NCBI GenBank assembly: GCA_016235865.1
Contig: JACRIK010000003.1
Location: 186,001-250,000 of the forward strand
Reading direction: 5' to 3'
From: Planctomycetota bacterium
GTDB lineage: Bacteria > Planctomycetota > MHYJ01 > JACQXL01
DNA: 64,000 bases
Under the pieces are notes generated by a model, which was given only the letters and a program-made list of their open reading frames with translations, did not search any database and was not told the origin of the DNA. A program made the translations under genes and the position numbers. Shown one piece after another: positions 39,968 to 51,970 of this stretch (the stretch's first letter is position 1; each line of letters starts with the position of its first letter).

Positions 39968-39996
39968 TTGACATTCAGAGCGTACTTTGGTAAGAT
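39968..39996 (+). promoter_or_regulatory. RCC1-gene promoter, leaderless
   Basis: TTGACA at 39968–39973, 17-bp spacer, TAAGAT at 39991–39996; the ATG follows at 40004, within a base or two of the expected transcription start. A TTG inside the -35 box opens the frame earlier but cannot be the start. Confidence 0.7.
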
Positions 39997-40003
39997 GCCT
40001 ATT

Positions 40004-42166
40004 ATGAACAAAACCTTGATAACTCTCGCGGTTTTGGTAATTGTTCTTTCCGTTAACATCTCCCTTAAAGCCACCAACGACTCTGATGCCCAATGGGTCA
40101 CGGTCGGACCCGGCGCCTGGCATACGGCCGCCATAAAATCAGACGGCACCCTTTGGTTCTGGGGCTATGATATCCCCACTCCGGTGCAAGTAGGTAAGAA
40201 TAAGGACTGGGTCAAGGTCACCGGCGGCTGGCAGCACGCCCTGGCCATAAAAAAAGATGGCTCATTATGGGCCGCCGGTTATAATATGCACGGTGAATTG
40301 GGCCTGGGCGACGACAAAATCACCGGCACCCTCATTTCCACTCCCACCCGGGTCGGCGCCGACAATGACTGGGCTGATGTCAAGGGCGGGATGTACTATA
40401 CAGCGGCCTTAAAGACCAACGGCACGCTCTGGGCCTGGGGCCAAAATAAAGAAGGTCAATTCGGAACCGGCGACACGGAAAACAGAAACAGCCCGTTCCA
40501 AATCGGCACGAACAGCGATTGGAAATCCATTAATATTGCCCCAGGCAGCAGCAATCTGCTGGTGGTCAAGGCTGACGGCACGCTCTGGGGATTCAATTGG
40601 GCCGGACACTGGCCGAAAAAGGCCAACCGGCACATTCAAATAAATCCGGATACTGATTGGGCTTTGGCCGTGGCCGGCCGCAACCATAGTGCCGGCATAA
40701 AGAATAACGGCACCCTCTGGATTTGGGGTTCCGACACCCTCGGTTCTTTGGGATTAGGCGACCGCAAATACGAAAAAGGATTCTCGCCTTGGGTGCCCAC
40801 CCAATTAGGAACGGACTATGATTGGGAGCAGGTTGCGGTAGGCGAAGGATATACCGTGGCGCTGAAGACCAACGGCACGCTCTGGGCCTGGGGCGGCAAC
40901 GCCTGGGGCCAGCTGGGCTTCGGCGACCAGGACGCCTGTAAAAAACCCACTCAGTTGGGCATTGACAGGGACTGGCAAGCTATATTTATCGGCAACCGGC
41001 ACACCATAGGATTGAAGACCAACGGCACACTTTGGGCCTGGGGCTTTAATCGGAGCAATCAGCTGGGAATTGGGGAGGTATGCCAGGTCAGATACCCGAC
41101 GCAGGTGGGACAGGACCGGTATTGGGCCGACATATCCATCTCAGCCGGCGGCTATCACGCCATTGGCCTGAGGGACGACGGCGCCATGCTCGGCAGCGGT
41201 TTTAACCTGAGCGGCCAGACCGGCGCACCCAGGTCTCAAACCAACCTGACCTCATTCACCGAAATCAACTCCGGCCGCGGCTGGAAAAGCATCTCGGCCG
41301 GCTGGTTCCATACCTCGGTTATCAAATCCGATGGTACGCTCTGGACCTTCGGCGCCGGTTTTACTGACTACAAAGAATCCGGTGAGATACCGCGTCAGAT
41401 AGGCGCGGATACGGATTGGCTGTCAGTCGCCTCCGGCGGACATTACGACATTGCCCTAAAAACCAACCGCACGCTCTGGGGTTGGGGGCACAATCAAAAA
41501 GGCCAGTTGGGATTGGGTGATACGGCCAACCGGACCGTGCCCATGCTCATCAGCCCGGACAGTAACTGGAAAATGGTGTCCGTCGGCCACAGCCATACCC
41601 TGGCCATCAAGGCCAACAACACGCTCTGGGCCTGGGGCGAAAATCGCTTCGGGCAATTAGGCCTGGGCGATACCGAAGGCAGACTGTTTCCTACCCAGGT
41701 CGGAACCAACACTGACTGGGCTTCTGTCTCAGCCGGCTGGAATCATACCCTGGCCATCAAGACCGACGGCACACTCTGGGCCTGGGGCGCCGGCATACAT
41801 AATCAGACCCAAGAAGCCGGGGCATCTGACGGCCCTGCAACCACCCCCATCCGGATCGGAAGCGACAAAAATTGGGCCTTTGTCTCGGCCGGCTGGAACC
41901 ATAATATGGCCATCAAAACCGACGGCACACTCTGGGCCTGGGGCGACAACTCCCTGGGCCAGCTGGGCCTGGGCGACATTGCCCGGGTAGCTATGCCCAC
42001 CCAGATTGGCAACGAAACCTATTGGTCAAAAGTCGAATGCGGGCAGAGTTCCACCCTGGCCTTAAAAACCGACCGCACCCTCTGGGCCTGGGGTAACAAG
42101 GACGAAGGGCAATTGGGATTAAGTGAAACCACCCACGTCAAAACGCCAATCAAAATCGCAAAATAA
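40004..42166 (+). CDS. Secreted RCC1-repeat beta-propeller protein
   Basis: A 720-residue exported protein with a signal peptide (TLITLAVLVIVLSVNISLKA) followed entirely by about thirteen RCC1/BNR-type repeats of 50–55 residues. Each contains versions of GTLWAWGxNxxGQLGLGD and a W-x-x-V/I-x-x-G start (DWASVSAGWNHTLAIKTDG). RCC1 repeats fold as seven-bladed propellers, so the number fits about two propellers. The repeat DNA is itself similar (ACGGCAC-CTCTGGGCCTGGGG). Role probably extracellular binding. Confidence 0.9.
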   Translation: MNKTLITLAVLVIVLSVNISLKATNDSDAQWVTVGPGAWHTAAIKSDGTLWFWGYDIPTPVQVGKNKDWVKVTGGWQHALAIKKDGSLWAAGYNMHGELGLGDDKITGTLISTPTRVGADNDWADVKGGMYYTAALKTNGTLWAWGQNKEGQFGTGDTENRNSPFQIGTNSDWKSINIAPGSSNLLVVKADGTLWGFNWAGHWPKKANRHIQINPDTDWALAVAGRNHSAGIKNNGTLWIWGSDTLGSLGLGDRKYEKGFSPWVPTQLGTDYDWEQVAVGEGYTVALKTNGTLWAWGGNAWGQLGFGDQDACKKPTQLGIDRDWQAIFIGNRHTIGLKTNGTLWAWGFNRSNQLGIGEVCQVRYPTQVGQDRYWADISISAGGYHAIGLRDDGAMLGSGFNLSGQTGAPRSQTNLTSFTEINSGRGWKSISAGWFHTSVIKSDGTLWTFGAGFTDYKESGEIPRQIGADTDWLSVASGGHYDIALKTNRTLWGWGHNQKGQLGLGDTANRTVPMLISPDSNWKMVSVGHSHTLAIKANNTLWAWGENRFGQLGLGDTEGRLFPTQVGTNTDWASVSAGWNHTLAIKTDGTLWAWGAGIHNQTQEAGASDGPATTPIRIGSDKNWAFVSAGWNHNMAIKTDGTLWAWGDNSLGQLGLGDIARVAMPTQIGNETYWSKVECGQSSTLALKTDRTLWAWGNKDEGQLGLSETTHVKTPIKIAK

Positions 42167-42604: not shown

Positions 42605-43179
42605 ATGACAGGGATTTTAAAGATGAAAGCCATCAACCTGAAAATCCGGATTGCCACGGGCAGGGAAGTAATACACGCCGAAGAGCATCGGATAAGAAAA
42701 ATGCCTTTGACATCACCCTGCTCAAGAACGACTTCCAGACCCTGGCCGATTTGCAGGGCCATTTGACCTTCGAATCCTTCATCAGCCTGTTCCTGGACAT
42801 CCGTTCACGGCTGGAATGCCCGACCGGCTGGGCCCTGGAACTGCTCCGGAAATTCGTCAATTTCCAGGGTAATATCAGGCGGATGGCCGAATCCTTGGGC
42901 ATCCCGGCTAAGGCCGACAAGGTCAAATGCCGGATGCGGTATCTGGCGCGCCGGTACGGCACCCGGTCGCTCAAGTCCTTTCTCAAGGCGGCTCAGGTCT
43001 ATGTCTATGTCTGCCGGAAACTCCGCTGGCGCATGGACTATCACTGCGACCGGCTGGGCGCCTGGTGCGATTGCGGGTTCAATTGTAAGCAGGCGGCCCG
43101 GCTGTCCGGCATGTGCGCGGCCAAGACCTTCCAGCGCTATATCAAACGGCTCAAGGCCCGGTTCGGGTTTGGCGGATAA
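42605..43179 (+). CDS. HTH-type protein with -1 frameshift
   Basis: Two overlapping frames read as one protein. The first part starts at the ATG at 42605 (GGAG four bases upstream) or 42623 and encodes INLKIRIATGREVIHAEEH. At the run AAAAA (42697–42701) a -1 shift enters the second frame, which continues NAFDITLLKNDFQTLADLQ to the stop at 43179. The main part has two HTH-like segments (NIRRMAESLGIPAKADKVK and CKQAARLSGMCAAKTFQRY), so DNA binding is likely. The shift could be programmed slippage, a mutation or a sequence error. Its 3' end is duplicated at 44177–44210. Confidence 0.55.
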
Positions 43180-43180
43180 G
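43147..43180. repeat. Direct repeat flanking DUF3800 cassette, left copy
   Basis: 34 bases starting CGGCTCAAGGCCCGGTTCGG at the 3' end of the HTH gene; 31 of 34 match 44177–44210. Each copy is followed within 20 bp by TTGACAGAA. Confidence 0.8.
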
Positions 43181-43224: not shown

Positions 43225-43920
43225 ATGAGAAGCCATTTTATCTATCAGGATGAAAGTGGAGTGGTGGGCACAACCGGCAACTTCATTGTCGGCCTTTTAT
43301 TTGTCAAGGAACGGCCGCCGTTATACGAAATCATTCAAAAGACAAGGGAAAAGCACAAATACTGGAAGGAATTACATTTTTCGGAGATATTCTATTTCTC
43401 GTCAAAACGCTCGCGGGTGGCTTGTGAGGTTCTGGATAACATCTTAAGAGAACATATCTATTTCCGGGCTTTGGCCGTATCGAATGAAAAGTTGGAGTTA
43501 AAATATTTTGATGGCGCTATGAGAAAGCCCGGGGATTTAACCGAGGAGCAAGTCCGGAAGGCGAAATCCCGGGGGATGTTCCGCGCCTATAACTACTTTA
43601 CCAAAGAGCTGCTTTTGGAAAACGCCGGTATCCTAACCGAGGCGGTGGTTTATCTGGACAAGAAAATCAGGATGCGGGACGACAATATCTGCGAATACAT
43701 CAAACGGGAAATAAACCTGGCCACCAATAAAACGGCCATAAAAGTCGTTGAGCCGCGCGATTCCAAGCAGGACGATTTAATCGGCATTGCGGACCTGGTG
43801 TTGGGTGCAATAAATTATAAAATGAAACAAGGCCAGAACCCGATGAAACTGGCCGTGGTAAAAGTAGTCGAGCAGTATATCGGCAAAAAGATACGTTTCC
43901 GGGAATGGGTCTTTAAATAA
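43225..43920 (+). CDS. DUF3800 domain protein
   Basis: A 231-residue protein of the DUF3800 family, which has an RNase H-like fold and is frequent in defence islands. The N-terminal YQDESG supplies the first acidic pair. A central helical region (HFSEIFYFSSKR) and the C-terminal PRDSKQDDLIGIADLVLGA, with its Asp residues and Asp-Leu pair, complete the predicted active site. The activity of the family is not established; nuclease action on RNA or DNA is the usual suggestion. The gene stands alone between direct repeats, with its own promoter. Confidence 0.82.
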   Translation: MRSHFIYQDESGVVGTTGNFIVGLLFVKERPPLYEIIQKTREKHKYWKELHFSEIFYFSSKRSRVACEVLDNILREHIYFRALAVSNEKLELKYFDGAMRKPGDLTEEQVRKAKSRGMFRAYNYFTKELLLENAGILTEAVVYLDKKIRMRDDNICEYIKREINLATNKTAIKVVEPRDSKQDDLIGIADLVLGAINYKMKQGQNPMKLAVVKVVEQYIGKKIRFREWVFK

Positions 43921-44176: not shown

Positions 44177-44210
44177 CGGCTCAAGGCCCGGTTCGGGGTT
44201 GGCAGCTAAG
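44177..44210. repeat. Direct repeat flanking DUF3800 cassette, right copy
   Basis: Matches 43147–43180 at 31 of 34 positions and preserves the C-terminal reading frame of the HTH gene (RLKARFG then a stop codon). It is therefore the 3' remnant of a second HTH-gene copy. A promoter with TTGACAGAA follows. Confidence 0.75.
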
Positions 44211-44272: not shown

Positions 44273-44356
44273 ATGAAGCTACACCAGAACAATTACGCAT
44301 TTATTGACAGCCAGAACCTTAATATGGCTCCGGCTAATCCTATGGAGTATCAGTAA
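44273..44356 (+). pseudogene. 27-codon remnant of a NYN-domain gene
   Basis: The ORF encodes 27 residues containing NNYAFIDSQNLNM, which matches the first strand and loop of NYN/LabA-type (DUF88) PIN-like ribonucleases, including the catalytic-region Asp of FID. It then stops after EYQ. Its TAA overlaps the ATG of the DUF1016 gene by one base (TAATG), so it may serve as a coupled leader peptide. Read as a truncated NYN gene replaced by the next gene; chance resemblance is possible. Confidence 0.5.
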
Positions 44357-45360
44357 TGAAATTGATGAAACGATTTAATAAGCAGTTTGCTGAGGTCGTA
44401 AATATTATCCATAAAGCGCGGTTTAACGCCATAAAAAGCGTAAATACCGAACTGGTGAAACTATACTGGAACATCGGCGAATATATCAGCGGAAAAATCG
44501 CATCCGCCGAGTGGGGTGATGCCGTCGTTGACCAACTGGCTGACTACATACAAACCAACCATCCGGAATTCAAAGGATTTAACCGCAGAGGATTGTACCG
44601 AATGAGGCAGTTTTATGAGGTTTATCCGGACAATAAGATTGTGTCGGCACTGCTGACACAAATCAGTTGGACAAATCACCTGCTGATTCTTTCTAAAACC
44701 AGGTCAAAAGAAGAGCGTAAATTTTATTTAATGCTTTCAATTAGGGAAAGATACAGTTCGCGCGAACTGGAACGGCAAATAGACAGCGGTTACTATGAAC
44801 GGGCAATGATTTCAAGGAAAAAAGTGCCGTCACTGATGGCGCAAACCCATAAAGATATTACTGCGGTATTTAAAGACACCTATATTTTGGACTTTTTACG
44901 CCTTCCGGAAAGCCACAGCGAAAAAGAATTACAGAAAAGCATTGTCTCAAACTTAAAGGATTTTATCATTGAGTTCGGGAAAGATTTCGCCTTCATCGGC
45001 CAGGAATACCGGATTCAGGTCGGCAACAATGATTATTTCATTGACCTTCTTTTCTTCCATCGCGGTCTTAAGTGTCTGGTTATGGTGGAACTGAAAATAG
45101 ACGACTTTAAGCCGGAATATCTGGGCAAGATGAATTTCTACCTTGAAGCATTGGACCGGGATGTTCGGAAAGAAGAAGAAAACCCCAGCGTGGGTATTAT
45201 CCTATGCAAATCCAAGGACGATGAGGTTGTAGAATATGCCCTCAGCCGCCATCTTTCTCCGACACTGGTAGCAGAATACAAGACGAAATTAATACCCAAG
45301 AAAATATTGCAGAAAAAGCTACACGAACTATTTATGTTAGAAGGAAAGGTTAGGCGCTAA
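44356..45360 (+). CDS. DUF1016/YhcG-type PDDEXK nuclease
   Basis: A 334-residue protein. Residues about 10–160 form the helical DUF1016 N-terminal domain (VNTELVKLYWNIGEYIS, FNRRGLYRMRQFYEVYP). The C-terminal part is a PDDEXK-fold nuclease with catalytic residues Asp in YFIDLLFFH and the E-x-K of VMVELKIDDFKPEYLGKM. The family is common in defence islands and mobile regions. It follows the NYN remnant with a one-base overlap and shares its promoter. No partner methylase or specificity subunit is seen. Confidence 0.9.
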   Translation: MKLMKRFNKQFAEVVNIIHKARFNAIKSVNTELVKLYWNIGEYISGKIASAEWGDAVVDQLADYIQTNHPEFKGFNRRGLYRMRQFYEVYPDNKIVSALLTQISWTNHLLILSKTRSKEERKFYLMLSIRERYSSRELERQIDSGYYERAMISRKKVPSLMAQTHKDITAVFKDTYILDFLRLPESHSEKELQKSIVSNLKDFIIEFGKDFAFIGQEYRIQVGNNDYFIDLLFFHRGLKCLVMVELKIDDFKPEYLGKMNFYLEALDRDVRKEEENPSVGIILCKSKDDEVVEYALSRHLSPTLVAEYKTKLIPKKILQKKLHELFMLEGKVRR

Positions 45361-45537: not shown

Positions 45538-46491
45538 TTAAGAAAAAGGTTCAGGTTCACCTGATTTGATCTTAGGCGAGTTTTCTATTCCTTTAAATAT
45601 TTCACGATTTAAATCACGCTCGAATAAGTATAATGCTTTCCAAGCTGAATCAAAACTGCGCTCCATATACAATTTATTACATTTAAAAAATTGTCCATTT
45701 GGACTGCTAACCACTATATAATATAATGGCTTATCTTCAAGTATTGATTCCGCAATTAGAATTTCTACAAGCGAATCATCAATTAATTTAATATTCCCCC
45801 TCCATAAAATGCTATTAGTTTGCTTTGAAAGGAAAGTCTCGATATCTGGATACATTTTGGAAATAATCTCTTTGTCTCGAGTGCGGATTTGCTTAATCGC
45901 TATTTGGCTTGTAGCTGTAGTATCAGTCAGAACTTCTTTATTAGGTCTTTCATCTGCGTCCTCTCCTCGATCAATAAAAATCGCTGGCTCTTTAATAATT
46001 TTTATTTTGGAATGGGGGATTTCAAAGCCTGCCACAGCTCCTTTTTTAAATAAAAAGTGCTTAACTATATATCTTCCATGTTTAAAAAACGCGTCATTCT
46101 TAGATGTAACTAAAAGCGCGTAAAAGAAGTCTATATTATGTTTAGTATGATTAACGGTCCTAGTATATGTTTCAATGTCTCCTCGACTTAAGGCATCCAA
46201 ACCATTAACATGATGTGTATGCCAATTACCAAGAGCTTCGATTTCTGGATATGACGATTCTATCTTCCTAAAAATCATTTCTTGATATTCGCCGTCCTGA
46301 AAAAAACTAACCGGCGACTTGCGTGCATTTGGCCCCGGGGCAATTAATGCGCAAACTTTTATTTCTACTTTATTATCCTGTTGAGCAAAGAATCCAACAA
46401 TACGTCCGCCAGTTTCATTTATTTTATTTTTATCGCACTCATCAAAGATAGCTTCCAGCACATCCTTGCAAATCGATATCTTAATTTGCAT
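45538..46491 (-). CDS. JAB/JAMM isopeptidase-like protein
   Basis: About 317 residues. The zinc JAMM motif is complete: Glu in NETGGRIVGFF, then HTH, and SRGD eight residues later (HxHx8SxxD in WHTHHVNGLDALSRGD). JAMM enzymes of bacterial ubiquitin-like operons cleave conjugates or process the modifier. After the core (about residue 160) there is a C-terminal extension containing NSILWRGNIKLIDDSLVEIL and ending in SGEPEPFS. I start it at the ATG at 46491 (AGAAGA upstream, five bases after the E1 stop); an in-frame ATG at 46527 would overlap the E1 gene. Last gene of the operon. Confidence 0.88.
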   Translation of the reverse strand: MQIKISICKDVLEAIFDECDKNKINETGGRIVGFFAQQDNKVEIKVCALIAPGPNARKSPVSFFQDGEYQEMIFRKIESSYPEIEALGNWHTHHVNGLDALSRGDIETYTRTVNHTKHNIDFFYALLVTSKNDAFFKHGRYIVKHFLFKKGAVAGFEIPHSKIKIIKEPAIFIDRGEDADERPNKEVLTDTTATSQIAIKQIRTRDKEIISKMYPDIETFLSKQTNSILWRGNIKLIDDSLVEILIAESILEDKPLYYIVVSSPNGQFFKCNKLYMERSFDSAWKALYLFERDLNREIFKGIENSPKIKSGEPEPFS

Positions 46492-46496
46492 TGTTT

Positions 46497-47342
46497 CTAT
46501 CTTCTTTCGTTCGAACATACCTGACATCCTTCCTGAGGTTTTAAATCAATGCGCTGAATCTGGAAATGTTTTTTAAATGGTGGCGTTGGACGATTACCCC
46601 AAACAATATAATTATCCGGGAGTGCCTGCATATATTTAGGCCGTTCCGGCAACGTTTCTGCAATCGCATCAAGAATGAATCTGGTATGAAATGCCGTAAT
46701 AAAAGATATATCGACATTGAGCCCCGGCGAGTCTTTTATTTCTGCTATTTCCATCCCATACATTAATTCTCTTTCTTTCTCAGAAACAAGGTCTATCTCC
46801 CTTGTGCCCTGGCGGAAATTAGTTCTTGCAAGAACTCCTTCAAGGCATGCTAAGCATCCCCCTTTACCTGGGCGGTAGATAAATACCTCGCCTCCAATTC
46901 CCCTGGTGAAAACTCGGGCTACCACAAATGGAATTTTATTCCGTACACAAAGCTGATTAACTAAATATCGTGTCGGTTCATTGTCGGTGGCTAAAGCGAC
47001 TATTGTATGACTTTTTATCTCTGACTCAAGATTGTCGTAATGCATTATATCTACGTCTAATTTCCCGACTTTAATTGCGGGGTTGCGATCCAAAAGAATT
47101 TCCTCAAGCGCGTCAACTTTTTTCTTGCCGACAAATCTAATTCCACACACATGCCGGATAACATTTTCTAATCCAAGGATGTCTTTGTCTATAAGAGTAA
47201 AATTTCGAATACCTGACATTGCCAGTTGTAAAGCAAGACTTCCACCGCCGGAACCACAACCAGCGATAAGCACCTTGGCATCACCCAATAAACCGACATC
47301 AAAAAGTTTTTTTATTCTTTCGAATATTTTATTGTTATTCAT
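46497..47342 (-). CDS. ThiF/E1-like ubiquitin-activating enzyme
   Basis: A 281-residue stand-alone E1-type adenylation domain. ATP-binding loop AGCGSGGGSLALQLA, Asp53 of LIDKD, the Arg contact in LENVIRHV and the ATDNEPTR loop are as in ThiF/MoeB/E1. Two CxxC pairs (CLAC near 163–166 and CQVC near 273–276) should bind zinc. Cys66 and Cys132 are other candidates for a catalytic thiol; the sequence alone does not settle which is used. Expected to adenylate the C terminus of a small modifier and hand it to the E2 proteins encoded just upstream. Confidence 0.9.
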   Translation of the reverse strand: MNNNKIFERIKKLFDVGLLGDAKVLIAGCGSGGGSLALQLAMSGIRNFTLIDKDILGLENVIRHVCGIRFVGKKKVDALEEILLDRNPAIKVGKLDVDIMHYDNLESEIKSHTIVALATDNEPTRYLVNQLCVRNKIPFVVARVFTRGIGGEVFIYRPGKGGCLACLEGVLARTNFRQGTREIDLVSEKERELMYGMEIAEIKDSPGLNVDISFITAFHTRFILDAIAETLPERPKYMQALPDNYIVWGNRPTPPFKKHFQIQRIDLKPQEGCQVCSNERR

Positions 47343-47365
47343 CTATTATTCTGCGTTTGATTGAG

Positions 47366-47872
47366 TCACTTGCCTTTTCCGCGCCATTCTTTATAGTTAG
47401 AAAGCCATTTCCTAGCCAATTCTAAAACAAAGGCAATATTGTGCTTACCAGGATTCCAATTAGTCATTGCGCCAAAAATACAGAGCGCGCCATTCTTCCA
47501 ACGATGTGGCGCGTTATTCTCAATAGGTTGAGCATATACCATTGGAGCATTATTGGGGTATCCGTGAGGAAGTACAATTTTCAGAGTGATTTTATCTTTG
47601 CCATTAATTTCTCTAAAAATTATTTCTAACTCCTTGTTTTCTGAAAGGGTTAATATTGGTTCCTCCCCATTTTTGCGCAATTCGTCTATTTCTTTGTCGA
47701 CTTTTTCTTTTGGTATAGCCGGCAAAAAATACCAAATAGGTACTAAACACGCTTTTTGGTTCCCGCTCCTCTCGATAATAAATGCTTCACCCTTTTCATA
47801 CACCCGGTCAAGAATTTCTCCGGGCGAACTCCGCAATTCCATCATTGTCAGAGTTTTAAAATCTAATTCCAT
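47366..47872 (-). CDS. Phd/YefM antitoxin domain fused to E2-like domain
   Basis: 168 residues with two parts. Residues about 5–50 (LTMMELRSSPGEILDRVYEK, then FIIERSGNQKACLVPI) match the Phd/YefM antitoxin DNA-binding fold, including the E-x-R, G-x-x-x-x-x-V and AxLVPI pattern. Residues about 80–168 are an E2/UBC-like core: LPHGYPNNAPMVY, then PHRWKNGALC with candidate catalytic Cys131, then NWNPGKHN and KWLSNYKEW. The C-terminal part is homologous to the neighbouring E2 (47882–48256). The fusion could let the conjugation operon sense or repress itself, or act as an antitoxin. Fusion is seen directly; its role is inference. Confidence 0.8.
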   Translation of the reverse strand: MELDFKTLTMMELRSSPGEILDRVYEKGEAFIIERSGNQKACLVPIWYFLPAIPKEKVDKEIDELRKNGEEPILTLSENKELEIIFREINGKDKITLKIVLPHGYPNNAPMVYAQPIENNAPHRWKNGALCIFGAMTNWNPGKHNIAFVLELARKWLSNYKEWRGKGK

Positions 47873-47881
47873 AGTTTTTCT

Positions 47882-48256
47882 TTAATGTGCGATTGATCTT
47901 CCCGGCCAAACCCCACTATTTTTCCAGACTTCATATTTATTAATCCATTTGGCTGTACGTTGAATAACGAATGAGAGATTATGTTGACCAGGATTCCACA
48001 TACTTGGATGCAAGTAACAAATATTCCCTGTATTATAACGATGAGGCCCAGATAAAACGTCTGGTTTATCAATATTAACTGAGGGCATTTCGTATGGATA
48101 ACTGTCAGGAAAAAGTATAGAAATAACATAAATCTGGTATGACGGCTGAAGTGCGACCTTAACACAAATCTTGCCATTTCTTGTTTGGTACAAATCCATA
48201 TTCTGAAAATATGCCTTTGCATCGTTAAATTGCCGCTGAACAAGATATAAATCCAT
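47882..48256 (-). CDS. E2-like ubiquitin-conjugating protein
   Basis: A 124-residue UBC-fold protein: beta strands, then FPDSYPYEMPSV (the E2 FPxxYPxxPP equivalent), then PHRYNTGNICYLHPSMWNPG with candidate catalytic Cys80, and a C-terminal helix KWINKYEVW. It would accept a modifier from the E1 encoded two genes downstream and pass it to targets. It starts 2 bp after the stop of the small gene and ends 9 bp before the Phd–E2 gene, so it is co-translated. No HPN motif is visible, as in many bacterial E2s. Confidence 0.85.
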   Translation of the reverse strand: MDLYLVQRQFNDAKAYFQNMDLYQTRNGKICVKVALQPSYQIYVISILFPDSYPYEMPSVNIDKPDVLSGPHRYNTGNICYLHPSMWNPGQHNLSFVIQRTAKWINKYEVWKNSGVWPGRSIAH

Positions 48257-48258
48257 AT

Positions 48259-48441
48259 TTATCCCTCTATATAATATTCACCACCAAGGTCTTCTTTATA
48301 TGTTATAGGTCTCTTGCCAATTTCAAGACTATTGGTTGGGTTGCGAGGACGGATTTCTCCATTTGGCATAATCTCGATTGGAACCTCGTCTTCTGTATCA
48401 AGGATTCTCTTCAGGTCATCAACTGTTGGTTTTGGTGCCAT
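48259..48441 (-). CDS. 60-residue protein ending in Gly, candidate modifier
   Basis: The first gene of the operon, with a good ribosome binding site (GGGAGGA). It starts MAPKPTVDDLKRILDTEDEV and ends KEDLGGEYYIEG with a terminal glycine. It is acidic, with a helix followed by probable strands (VPIEIMPNGEIRP). Position first before E2, E2, E1 and JAB genes makes it the best candidate for the ubiquitin-like protein, although 60 residues is short for a full beta-grasp and the tail is not the usual Gly-Gly. It could instead be an adaptor or substrate. Confidence 0.65.
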   Translation of the reverse strand: MAPKPTVDDLKRILDTEDEVPIEIMPNGEIRPRNPTNSLEIGKRPITYKEDLGGEYYIEG

Positions 48442-48462
48442 ATAATCCTCCCGACTGTTATA

Positions 48463-48513
48463 ATTACACGGTTATCATAATTGTATAGTTATCATATTTC
48501 TTCAGGTTGTCAA
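48463..48513 (-). promoter_or_regulatory. Operon promoter with tandem 17-bp operator-like repeats
   Basis: On the minus strand TTGACA (48513–48508), 16-bp spacer, TAACTA (48491–48486). Two directly adjacent 17-bp repeats, TATGATAACTATACAAT (48496–48480) and TATGATAACCGTGTAAT (48479–48463), 13 of 17 identical, cover the -10 box and transcription start. They look like a repressor site; the Phd-like domain encoded in the operon is a natural candidate regulator. Confidence 0.65.
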
Positions 48514-48589: not shown

Positions 48590-51451
48590 CTATCCAACAC
48601 CATATCTATTTTTTAATCTCTTTATTTCGTCTCTTGTCTCTGTAGTTATTGCATTTTCTGGTACAAGCATGCCAACTAGGTTTTTAGCAAATTTCTTGCC
48701 ACTGCGCCAAAAAGCTCCATCCGTAGAGATGGGAACAAAGGGTAAGAATGTTTTCAATTGATGAATACAGAAAAAACCGTGCTTATAAAGATAGGAGAGT
48801 TTGTTTGCCTCATCAAAATGCATAACACAACAGCCGATTTTATTAATATTATGCTCGGCGTGTATTTTCCCGACAACCAACGGAATCAATTCATTAGCAG
48901 TTTCGTGGCTTGCTTTATAGATCGAAGAGATACACATACCGATTTTTTCAATATCTGGCTCGGCTTGTATTTTGGTTTTAAGGCCATTGAAATCAATTAA
49001 CTTTTTAGCAACATCCTGGCTTGTGTCTACAATAATACTAATAAGCCATCCGATTTTTCCAATATCCGCTTCAGCACCTATCTTTACCTTTAAGTTATTC
49101 GTATCTAATTCTTCAATCAACTCTTTAATAATTTCTTTATCTGCCCAAGCGTTGATACATAGGCTTATTTTTGCAATATCTGCTTCAGATTCTATTTTAT
49201 CGCGCAAGTTACTAACTTCTAATCCTTTCATTAACTCTTTAGCAATTCCTGCCCTCACATCGTTAATTTGATTTACGCATCGAGCTATTTTCTCAATATC
49301 TATCTCTGCTTTTATTTTCGCTTTTAGATTATCGGAATCAATTAACTTTCTAGCGTCCCCCAGACTTATCCTCATAATAATACTAATAAACCAACCTATT
49401 TTTTCAATATCCGGCTCGGACTCCATCTTTACCTTCAAGTTGCCCATATCTAATTCTTTGATTAATTTCTTAGCAAGCTCTTTATTCGCATCAACAATCC
49501 CTTTTAGGCAGGAAAAAACATTATTTGCATCTCGCTCAGTACCTATTTTTAAAGCAATCACTGGGATTAATGTTGAAGCAACTTTTTTGTTTGCCTTTGA
49601 AATATTGCATATATACCAACCTATTTTCTCAATATCCGGCTCATACTCTATCTTTTCCTTTAGTCTTTTTGCATCTAATTTTCCAATTAACTTTTTAGCA
49701 ATTCTTTGGTTGATATTGAAGGAAACACTAAAGCAAGAGCTTATCTTATTAATGTCTGATTCAGATTCTATTTTTGAAGCAATTGCCGGAATCATTTTCT
49801 CTGCAACCTCATCACTTGCGGGAAAGATACGTCCAACAAACCAGGTAATTTGATTAATATCTGGTTCGCATTGTATTCCATATACAATTGATTCGTGATT
49901 TGAATTTGATTTGACTATTTCATTAATGAGACTACGATGGAATTCCTTTTCCCGAGAATCATTTGCCCACCTATCCAATCCTCTGATGATACCCCCAGAA
50001 GCTAATGGATGACTCTGAATATAGGTATGAAATAGTCCCCCGAACCAATCGCCATTCCCAATTTTTTCTCTTATTTTCTTTTTAACCTCTTTTCCTAGAG
50101 AATCATACTGTTTAATTGCCTGAAAATATAAATCAGCAAGAGCTGAATGATGGAGCGAAAGCATTACCCCATTCTTCTCTGTAGTTGCAACAACTTCATT
50201 TATGCTGACTAAAGCATCAATATCATCATTTTTTATTTCTAATATCCTAGTAAGGAGTTCTTTATTCACTGGGATCTCATATCTATTGAAAACACAAAGT
50301 GGCAATAATACATCGGGGGCGTTTATTAATTGGTTCTTGTATTTGGGATGATCATTTATTAATTCTTTCTGCATCCACTTAACTACTTTTTGAAGGACTT
50401 TATCTTTGTCAACGCTTTTGAAGTTTTCATCTTGAAGAGTCCCCAATGTCCAGCCTAAAATCCATAAGTTGTTTCGGTATTGTTTTAATAGGGCTTTAGT
50501 CTCAGGCGTGGTTTTTTGGCCATGTTGACTAAGAAATAATTCTATAATATTATCAGCAACTGATTCTGGTTTTAGTTCAATCCCTTCCCCAAGACGCTCG
50601 TCTATTTCACCAAATCTTTGACCTTCTGCCTGACCTTTGATACTTCTTAAAGCAATAAGAATTTTATGCGTTTCTATCGTTCTTATTATATCGCTAACAT
50701 AAGATAAGTTAAAGTGCGCGTCGTCAATCAAGAAATATGCAGGTTCATTATTGTATAACTTTTTAAGCTCACTGGGTGGAATGACCTCCGTTTTCATCCT
50801 TAATTCAATCAAGGAAACATTCTTTCCAGCTTTGGCGAGTTCATAACCAACCCATTTCAGCACGACTGATTTTCCACATGCTGGCTGACCTTTAATAAAT
50901 ACAATCCGCTTGGATTCAAGTTGCTGCAATATTTTATCTACTTCTTCTGCCCTCTTGGCAACAAAGCCTTGCTCAAAATCAATCCATTTGGGTCCGGCAG
51001 AGCGGAAGAATTTAGCTTTCTTTTCTCCATCTTTATCAAGGATATTTTCTATTCGCAGTTCAGAAAAGCTGATTAAGTTTTCCTCTTGGTCTAATTTGCA
51101 TGCGCTTCCTTCAACTTCTTTGAGCGCTACTTCTTCGGTACTCTTTTTCCATTGTAACAACAAATCGCAGGGATATCTTTTTTCATCATTATCAACTAAT
51201 TTTCCACAATTCTGGCAAAGCCAAATTCCGTTTTCTATCGATTTTCTCTGTTCTTCCGTAAGAGATGCATTATATCGTTTCCCACCAGGGGAAGCTGCGG
51301 TAATGTGAGAGGCAACACCGATATTAAGAGCCTTATCAACAGATTCTTGTGGCCCGCTAGTTAATTTCGCACACTTTGGATTGGAGCACTTGTAGCCCAC
51401 ACGTTTGGCTAAAATCTCTTTTGTTGATTTATCAAAATCATCTCTGCTCAT
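48590..51451 (-). CDS. HNH–P-loop NTPase–repeat protein, defence-type
   Basis: 953 residues. N-terminal HNH-like domain: Cys22/Cys27, SHITAASPGGKRYN with His49, then NGIWLCQNCGKLVDNDE (Asn74, CxxC 79–82). The last HNH His is not obvious. A P-loop NTPase follows, with Walker A GQPACGKS at 188–195 and Walker B FLIDDAH at about 240–246, as in STAND-type ATPases. From about residue 515 to 935 run roughly a dozen degenerate 36-residue helical repeats (core E-x-D-I-x-K-I-G). The architecture fits a sensor (repeats), switch (NTPase) and nuclease effector. AT-rich; it lies 149 bp upstream of the conjugation operon on the same strand. Confidence 0.85.
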   Translation of the reverse strand: MSRDDFDKSTKEILAKRVGYKCSNPKCAKLTSGPQESVDKALNIGVASHITAASPGGKRYNASLTEEQRKSIENGIWLCQNCGKLVDNDEKRYPCDLLLQWKKSTEEVALKEVEGSACKLDQEENLISFSELRIENILDKDGEKKAKFFRSAGPKWIDFEQGFVAKRAEEVDKILQQLESKRIVFIKGQPACGKSVVLKWVGYELAKAGKNVSLIELRMKTEVIPPSELKKLYNNEPAYFLIDDAHFNLSYVSDIIRTIETHKILIALRSIKGQAEGQRFGEIDERLGEGIELKPESVADNIIELFLSQHGQKTTPETKALLKQYRNNLWILGWTLGTLQDENFKSVDKDKVLQKVVKWMQKELINDHPKYKNQLINAPDVLLPLCVFNRYEIPVNKELLTRILEIKNDDIDALVSINEVVATTEKNGVMLSLHHSALADLYFQAIKQYDSLGKEVKKKIREKIGNGDWFGGLFHTYIQSHPLASGGIIRGLDRWANDSREKEFHRSLINEIVKSNSNHESIVYGIQCEPDINQITWFVGRIFPASDEVAEKMIPAIASKIESESDINKISSCFSVSFNINQRIAKKLIGKLDAKRLKEKIEYEPDIEKIGWYICNISKANKKVASTLIPVIALKIGTERDANNVFSCLKGIVDANKELAKKLIKELDMGNLKVKMESEPDIEKIGWFISIIMRISLGDARKLIDSDNLKAKIKAEIDIEKIARCVNQINDVRAGIAKELMKGLEVSNLRDKIESEADIAKISLCINAWADKEIIKELIEELDTNNLKVKIGAEADIGKIGWLISIIVDTSQDVAKKLIDFNGLKTKIQAEPDIEKIGMCISSIYKASHETANELIPLVVGKIHAEHNINKIGCCVMHFDEANKLSYLYKHGFFCIHQLKTFLPFVPISTDGAFWRSGKKFAKNLVGMLVPENAITTETRDEIKRLKNRYGVG

Positions 51452-51630: not shown

Positions 51631-51970
51631 CACCTAAGCCCTGGACTACCCCTGCCTACGCTCTTATATACCACTACCGAAAGGGGCTACCTATACTACC
51701 TAAGCCCTTGACTACTACTACCTATGCTGTCCAGTATGGCTTCCTATACCCTTGGCTATGACTACCTAAGCGGGCCACTATGGCTACCTATGCCCTTGGC
51801 TATGACTACCTAAGCGGGCCACTATGACTACCTATACCCCTGACTACTACTACCTAAGCTGGCTACTATGCCTACCTATGCCCGTGACTACTACTACCTA
51901 AGCTGGCCACTATGCCTACCTATGCCCCTGACTACTACTACCTAAGCCCGTGACTATGACTACCTATGGG
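51631..51970. repeat. 44-bp tandem repeat array
   Basis: About 340 bp of tandem units near 44 bp long, each built of two halves: TGACTACTACTACCTAAGC and GGCCACTATGCCTACCTATG with variants. Units in the middle (51735–51960) are most regular; the left edge is degenerate. The array is pyrimidine-rich on this strand and closes with a G/C-rich segment (GGGGTAGTATACCCACCCC). Confidence 0.8.

Follow-up and report, generated by a model that had tools for sequence, protein, structure and literature searches.

In the bacterial systems of type 6a, an E2-E1-JAB polypeptide adjoins a metallo-β-lactamase (MBL) (Iyer, Burroughs and Aravind 2006; PMC1779556), and this combination has been named "anti-phage 6A-MBL" by NCBI (NCBIfam NF058523 and NF058524). 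In the Bil system, the modifier BilA is a tandem ubiquitin fold whose Gly is exposed by BilC, the E1 BilD has two adenylation domains plus a Cys domain, and the E2 contains a CEHH motif consisting of Cys, Glu at +6, His at +8 and His at +13 (PMC11354881). In type II CBASS, Cap2 conjugates cGAS, which has neither the ubiquitin (beta-grasp) fold nor a di-Gly end (PMC10097602), and the bacterial ubiquitination-like (Bub) operons have been cited as related putative immune operons (PMC13373217). Here, a minus-strand operon of five genes, encoding a 60-residue protein, two E2-like proteins (E2-1 and a second E2), an E1-like enzyme and a JAB/JAMM peptidase, has been analyzed in a 64,000-nucleotide stretch of a Planctomycetota genome (assembly GCA_016235865.1, contig JACRIK010000003.1, positions 186,001 to 250,000), which is referred to below as the window. 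Taken as a whole, the operon is best explained, with slightly less than even confidence, as a split conjugation module with two E2s, related to the anti-phage system 6A-MBL, in which a peptide would be conjugated and the second E2, a Phd-E2 chimera, would autoregulate the operon.

Relationship to the 6A-MBL, Bil and CBASS systems

The gene order 60-residue protein, E2-1, Phd-E2, E1 and JAB recurs in two other genomes, so that the recurrence suggested as a check on the original prediction made for this DNA has been found. One copy is located in a planctomycete metagenome-assembled genome (L003), with an E1 82% identical to that of the window, and the other, close to an IS30 transposase, on a plasmid of Mesorhizobium (L008). 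In both relatives an MBL gene follows the JAB gene, and behind it L003 has a membrane-protein gene and L008 one for a patatin-like phospholipase. The two MBLs are ComEC-like (5e-24) and match NF058524 (6A-MBL_enzyme) at 1.2e-9 and 1.2e-8 (37.8 and 34.5 bits, below the cut-off of 220 bits). The L003 membrane protein is homologous (4e-9) to one carried at L066, the single canonical 6A-MBL locus found among 392 planctomycete genomes; a protein of this kind has been seen beside that one canonical locus and is not known as defining for the system. The operon can be tied to type 6a because its relatives carry an MBL matching the 6A-MBL model and L003 has a membrane protein homologous to that of the canonical locus. 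An MBL on the Klebsiella plasmid CP079755 was discarded as a relative, its context being unrelated.

Judged by model matches, 6A-MBL rather than Bil or CBASS appears to be the nearest named system. The operon shares with 6A-MBL the E2, E1 and JAB modules and, in L003 and L008, the MBL adjoining them, and the membrane protein of L003 has its homologue at one canonical locus. Unlike 6A-MBL, it encodes E2, E1 and JAB in separate genes instead of one polypeptide (46.6 bits for JAB and 44.7 bits for E1 against an NF058523 cut-off of 320 bits), it has a second E2 fused to a Phd domain and a dedicated 60-residue peptide of a phage family, and the window copy is devoid of an adjacent MBL, with no match to the L003 MBL in its genome (the NF058524 cut-off for such an enzyme is 220 bits). 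As in BilABCD, an E1, an E2 and a JAB are accompanied by a dedicated small protein, encoded by the first gene, in which the peptidase may expose a GG. In contrast to Bil, the E1 is a single MoeB-like domain of 281 residues without Cys between C166 and C273, the operon has two E2s, and E2-1 shows C80, M86, N88 and N93 in place of the CEHH motif; in addition, the peptide is not detectably beta-grasp, with no match in Pfam or among PDB sequences and a weak AlphaFold2 model (pLDDT 62) of a helix and a hairpin. The operon resembles type II CBASS Cap2/Cap3 in its E2/E1 ligase chemistry, its isopeptidase and the fact that the conjugated protein need not be of ubiquitin fold, but its E1 and E2 are in separate genes and no CD-NTase was found in the window or in the L003 and L008 operons. 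No Bub ubiquitin-like protein was detected in the operon either, in an analysis that included no test aimed at one. The original prediction of a variant type of cassette is supported, with no CD-NTase found and no BilA-like protein recognized, although its closest relatives are to be sought in 6A-MBL instead of Bil and CBASS.

Within the range covered, the system seems to be rare; the contig scan relied on patterns and picks up close relatives only, and the whole-genome searches covered the Planctomycetota. A full-length match to the Phd-E2 was obtained in the window genome alone among 392 Planctomycetota genomes and in one plasmid among 72,556.

A Phd-E2 chimera and an operator-like promoter motif

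Profile and model comparisons indicate that the second E2 is a Phd-E2 chimera, in which a Phd/YefM DNA-binding domain precedes a UBC-like E2 domain. Two E2s had been recognized before, and both do carry the E2 motif and its Cys; what had been overlooked is the N-terminal Phd/YefM domain of the second, which makes it a chimera. Residues 6-46 match Pfam PhdYeFM at 4.5e-5 (23.6 bits, against a curated cut-off of 29.8), the orthologue from Mesorhizobium matches Pfam Phd/YefM at 1.2e-6, and the N-terminus matches phrog_375 ('Phd-like antitoxin') at 1.1e-5. The AlphaFold2 model (pLDDT 73.6, with the active-site loop at low confidence) has a Phd-like fold at its N-terminus, after which come a helix, four strands and a C-terminal helix in the order typical of UBC. 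A Foldseek search with this model placed UBC E2s at the top with a probability of 1.00, at E-values of only 0.014 and above, and the same list included the DNA-binding domain of P1 Phd (4zlx; 39 columns, root-mean-square deviation 1.1 Å). From Pfam, phrog_375 and the 4zlx match, the domain is assigned to the Phd/YefM family. The full-length fusion is also present in L003 (73% identity) and L008 (52%).

Like Phd/YefM antitoxins, the chimera has an N-terminal DNA-binding domain and is accompanied, in L008, by an operator-like palindrome in the promoter. Unlike them, it has the toxin-binding part of Phd swapped for an E2 domain, and no cognate toxin gene is adjacent in the window, L003 or L008. 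Upstream of the window operon stands the motif CCGTGTAATTATAACA, which agrees in 15 of 16 positions with an L008 sequence lying almost equally far from the start; none of 300 dinucleotide shuffles reached this agreement. In L008 this motif is one half of a 21-bp palindrome (equalled in 3 of 300 shuffles), and the upstream region of L003 showed no comparable motif match and an insignificant palindrome of its own. The motif fits autoregulation by the Phd domain, through which the Phd-E2 may bind the promoter and control its own operon.

The 60-residue protein and its phage relatives

The first gene of all three operons codes for the 60-residue protein, a candidate modifier, which has no match in Pfam, NCBIfam, PHROGs or PDB sequences. 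Sequence comparisons show that it belongs to an undescribed family of small proteins otherwise found in tailed-phage contigs, often adjoining portal or head genes. Scans of IMG/VR have revealed relatives in about a dozen distinct viral (tailed-phage) contigs, which brings the family to about 15 members, phage ones included. With a profile made solely from the three operon proteins, the phage proteins were retrieved at 4e-23 to 3e-12; conversely, one made solely from phage proteins retrieved the window protein at 1.2e-20. The family gave no match in PHROGs or in searches of phage records, hence it has no name there. This phage link had been missed by the original prediction because it is invisible from one sequence.

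In the phage copies L023 and L074 the gene overlaps a portal-type gene by 4 nucleotides, in L048 it follows the terminase and portal genes, and in L040 and L045 it lies beside major head genes. No E1, E2 or JAB gene was found beside it in the phage stretches examined. The operon copies form one group (support 0.86) among the phage members of an unrooted tree.

The family is characterized by the invariant motifs PNGE and LGGEY (PNGE..LGGEY), the latter in 14 of 14 sequences. From 0 to 13 residues follow GGEY in the different members, and many more in L023. In the operon copies, LGG precedes a variable tail of 2-6 residues, the proteins of the two relatives ending in ...GGEYYRR and ...GGEY. The Gly end to which attention had been drawn is therefore real in the window protein but is not conserved, and a terminal Gly was rejected as a modifier signature for this reason. 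The wobble bases of the LGGEY codons vary, which points to selection at the protein level; a Shine-Dalgarno (RNA-level) effect was rejected on the same grounds and because a start codon does not always come after the motif. The AlphaFold2 model consists of one helix, a hairpin and a disordered tail. A beta-grasp fold is unsupported by this model, which is weak enough to leave such a fold possible.

Other sequences that recall this family were observed. In L023 (7995-9065, plus strand), the phage family member continues in frame past GGEY into a signal-peptide-like stretch and a longer protein. Two small Phd-like phage proteins in L020 (5424-5684 and 6982-7230, plus strand) have a tail, PLTFRxxLGxxY, that resembles the end of the 60-residue family; as family members they are suggestive only, at an insignificant profile E-value of 2-7, and the likeness, if real, would put a Phd domain and a tail of this type in one chain. 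In a planctomycete of the same class, a cluster of JAB, a 65-residue protein, E2 and E1 (L063, 859-3727, plus strand) contains a small protein that is like the 60-residue protein only in size and in its helix-then-hairpin sequence pattern. Two further planctomycetes encode an E2 and a JAB-E1 fusion whose neighbours, judged by eye, are RAMP-like CRISPR genes and a Cas2-like gene in L064 (3701-8894, minus strand) and a reverse-transcriptase-like gene in L065 (2804-9609, plus strand), and both E2s have an N-terminal ITPNGEL-like stretch with a faint likeness to the 60-residue family (profile E-value 0.6 for that of L064).

The E1, E2-1 and JAB enzymes

The E1 matches Pfam ThiF at 3.7e-33, its nearest solved sequences being MccB and MoeB, and carries the motifs GCGSGGG, C163xxC166 and C273xxC276. 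E2-1 matches Pfam UQ_con at 1.3e-4 and the PADLOC E2 model at 3.3e-14, and its Cys and PHR are invariant in the three loci. Both E2s contain PHR[YW]xxGx[IL]C, and a profile built from the two matches solved ubiquitin-conjugating enzymes in the PDB at 8.5e-6. Together with the Foldseek result for the chimera, this agrees with a UBC-like fold for the E2-like proteins, the point on which a structural check had been suggested, and both window E2s contain the predicted active-site Cys. The JAB protein matches the PADLOC JAB model at 3.8e-15 and NF058523 at 1.9e-12 over the JAB part of that model, its best NCBIfam match being the 6A-MBL cap2_3 model; it has the complete set E38, H103, H105, S114 and D117 and a C-terminal extension of about 170 residues. 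All the motifs listed by the original prediction (the GCGSGGG loop and CxxC pairs, the E2 motif in both proteins and the JAB set) were thus seen in the sequence.

No E2-1 homologues were found in viral contigs. A relative of the E1, with 28.8% identity over 90%, is encoded in a 10.4-kb phage record that lacks annotation and comes from human faeces (MT836827.1, 866-1609).

Organization of the operon and neighbouring genes

The five genes are real and intact, and are more than chance open reading frames; all five were present where they had been reported (Table 1). Alignment of the three loci shows no change in the catalytic residues of JAB, the Cys of E2-1 or the zinc cysteines of the E1. Gaps of 2, 9 and 23 bp separate the first four genes, as previously described; the 5-bp gap given for the last pair presupposes the third in-frame ATG of JAB. 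Since the N-terminus MF[EKR]RKK is common to the window, L003 and L008 proteins, the JAB start is placed at 46518, and the E1 and JAB genes consequently overlap by 22 nucleotides. The operon region has a GC content of 0.35-0.41, compared with 0.50-0.57 in its surroundings. This low value, the gene order shared across phyla and the plasmid copy near an IS30 transposase suggest that the E1/E2/JAB cassette moves horizontally, in agreement with the AT-rich, transferred cassette first proposed.

Table 1. Features of the operon. Coordinates are positions in the window.
Feature	Coordinates	Strand	Remarks
60-residue small protein, candidate modifier or conjugation substrate	48259..48441	-	Orthologues in L003 and L008
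E2-1, UBC-like conjugating enzyme	47882..48256	-	Cys80, codon 48017-48019
Phd-E2 chimera, 168 residues	47366..47872	-	Phd/YefM residues 6-46 and UBC-like E2 domain with Cys131
Phd/YefM domain inside the chimera	47735..47857	-	Pfam; Foldseek 4zlx
E1-like ThiF/MoeB adenylating enzyme, 281 residues	46497..47342	-	Pfam ThiF; two zinc CxxC pairs
JAB/JAMM peptidase	45538..46518	-	Start placed by conservation; open reading frame first listed as 45538-46527
LGG of the invariant LGGEY, residues 52-54 of the 60-residue protein	48280..48288	-	Invariant in 14/14; putative JAB cut G54/E55
Operator-like motif CCGTGTAATTATAACA upstream of the operon	48456..48471	-	15/16 match to L008

Directly upstream, a 953-residue protein (48590-51451, minus strand) has an N-terminal part like the HNH endonuclease effectors of CBASS and PADLOC PDC-M68A, followed by an nSTAND NTPase and by imperfect repeats, with 36-nucleotide units at a spacing of about 105-225 nucleotides. 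It is probably an independent defence gene, and was rejected as a component of the system because it is not conserved at L003 or L008. On the other side, a DUF1016/YhcG-like PDDEXK nuclease gene (44356-45360, plus strand; PADLOC PDC-S02, 2e-135) is convergent with the operon and occupies the position of the MBL in the relatives. Farther away, a 34-bp direct repeat (91%) at 43147-43180 and 44177-44210 brackets a DUF3800 gene (43225-43920), as if this gene lay on a small inserted or duplicated unit, a 732-residue protein of RCC1-like repeats, judged by eye, is encoded at 39968-42166 (plus strand), and a tandem repeat with a 22-bp step is found at the edge of the AT-rich island (51632-51968).

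Proposed function and alternative explanations

An anti-phage role is suggested by the name given by NCBI to the nearest system and by the phage link of the peptide. In the proposed mechanism, JAB would trim the 60-residue peptide after LGG, between G54 and E55, as modelled on the trimming of BilA by BilC (PMC11354881). The E1 would adenylate the exposed glycine and hand it to Cys80 of E2-1, probably directly, as no crossover-loop Cys is available. The Phd-E2 would pair with E2-1, either as a partner or as a UEV-like E2, and would also repress the operon via its Phd domain. During infection, the peptide, whose phage homologues have their genes next to portal and head genes, would be attached to head proteins of the phage or to the MBL or effector of the system itself, which would block virion assembly or trigger the effector, and JAB would also reverse the conjugates. 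A bolder form of this idea, that a phage head-module protein has been captured as a non-beta-grasp modifier, cut at LGG|EY and attached to incoming phage head proteins (or that copies of the modifier serve phages as decoys), with the Phd-fused E2 linking conjugation to transcription, is regarded as unlikely.

Several observations count against this mechanism and the 6A-MBL relationship. Every score to the 6A-MBL models is under its curated cut-off, and only three operons are known in all. The low-confidence model of the 60-residue protein lacks a beta-grasp fold. A thioester Cys is usually kept in E1s in the interval between C166 and C273, which is free of Cys in all three loci, and therefore a direct handover of the adenylate to an E2 may be required. 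The Phd-E2 of Mesorhizobium has Ser in place of Cys, and the E1 of the same operon is frameshifted, so that the Ser may reflect decay; the frameshift also weakens the substitution as proof of a UEV-like E2. Finally, a search of the window's own genome found neither the MBL nor the membrane protein of the L003 type, and the window copy may therefore be incomplete, its MBL and effector either having been lost or never having been there.

The most serious alternative, which is considered rather unlikely, is that the 60-residue protein acts as a sensor, decoy or regulator, being either the host's version of a phage head-module peptide or a conjugation target, and that the E1 and E2s ligate another C-terminus, such as that of the MBL or a host protein, in the way of Cap2 with cGAS. 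The protein has no recognizable ubiquitin fold, its last residue is not conserved and its LGG is internal, it has phage homologues with no conjugation genes next to them in the stretches examined, and CBASS itself conjugates the cyclase and no ubiquitin-like protein (PMC10097602). Nevertheless, the gene comes first in all three operons, and an LGG followed by a variable short tail is the pattern expected of a precursor processed by JAB. As for the MBL as substrate, the L003 and L008 enzymes have no Gly or Ala in common at their ends, and the window copy has no MBL that could serve.

The same lack of MBL or effector genes beside the operon, and of MBL and membrane protein in the genome, could indicate that a mobile 6A-MBL-like system has left in the window only a remnant, in decay or without function, and one of the three known copies, that of Mesorhizobium, does have a frameshifted E1. 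However, random decay would be expected to strike some element of an operon in which all five reading frames are intact and all the catalytic residues and the promoter-region motif have been kept, and this explanation is judged improbable. Very improbable is a toxin-antitoxin-like module, with the Phd-E2 as antitoxin, the conjugation genes controlling a toxin and a purely structural E2 homology, which would account for the Phd/YefM domain at the chimera N-terminus and for the annotation of the Mesorhizobium protein as a Phd/YefM family antitoxin, but is opposed by the absence of a Doc/YoeB-like toxin at any of the three loci, the replacement of the toxin-binding tail by a UBC-like domain with PHRxxxGxLC and the complete E1 adenylation and JAB sites, which speak for chemistry.

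Significance for bacterial conjugation systems

Few modifiers are known for bacterial ubiquitin-like systems, and in the accessible literature no statement was met about what systems of the 6A-MBL type conjugate, for which the operon gives a concrete candidate with a testable cleavage site. No report was met of an E2 fused to the DNA-binding domain of an antitoxin, in searches too limited to show its absence from the literature, or of a modifier candidate for which relatives were found in phage genomes only, in many cases beside portal or head genes. Should the peptide prove to be conjugated, this would broaden what CBASS has taught, namely that a conjugated protein can do without a ubiquitin fold, and would provide a direct link between a defence modifier and phage head assembly.

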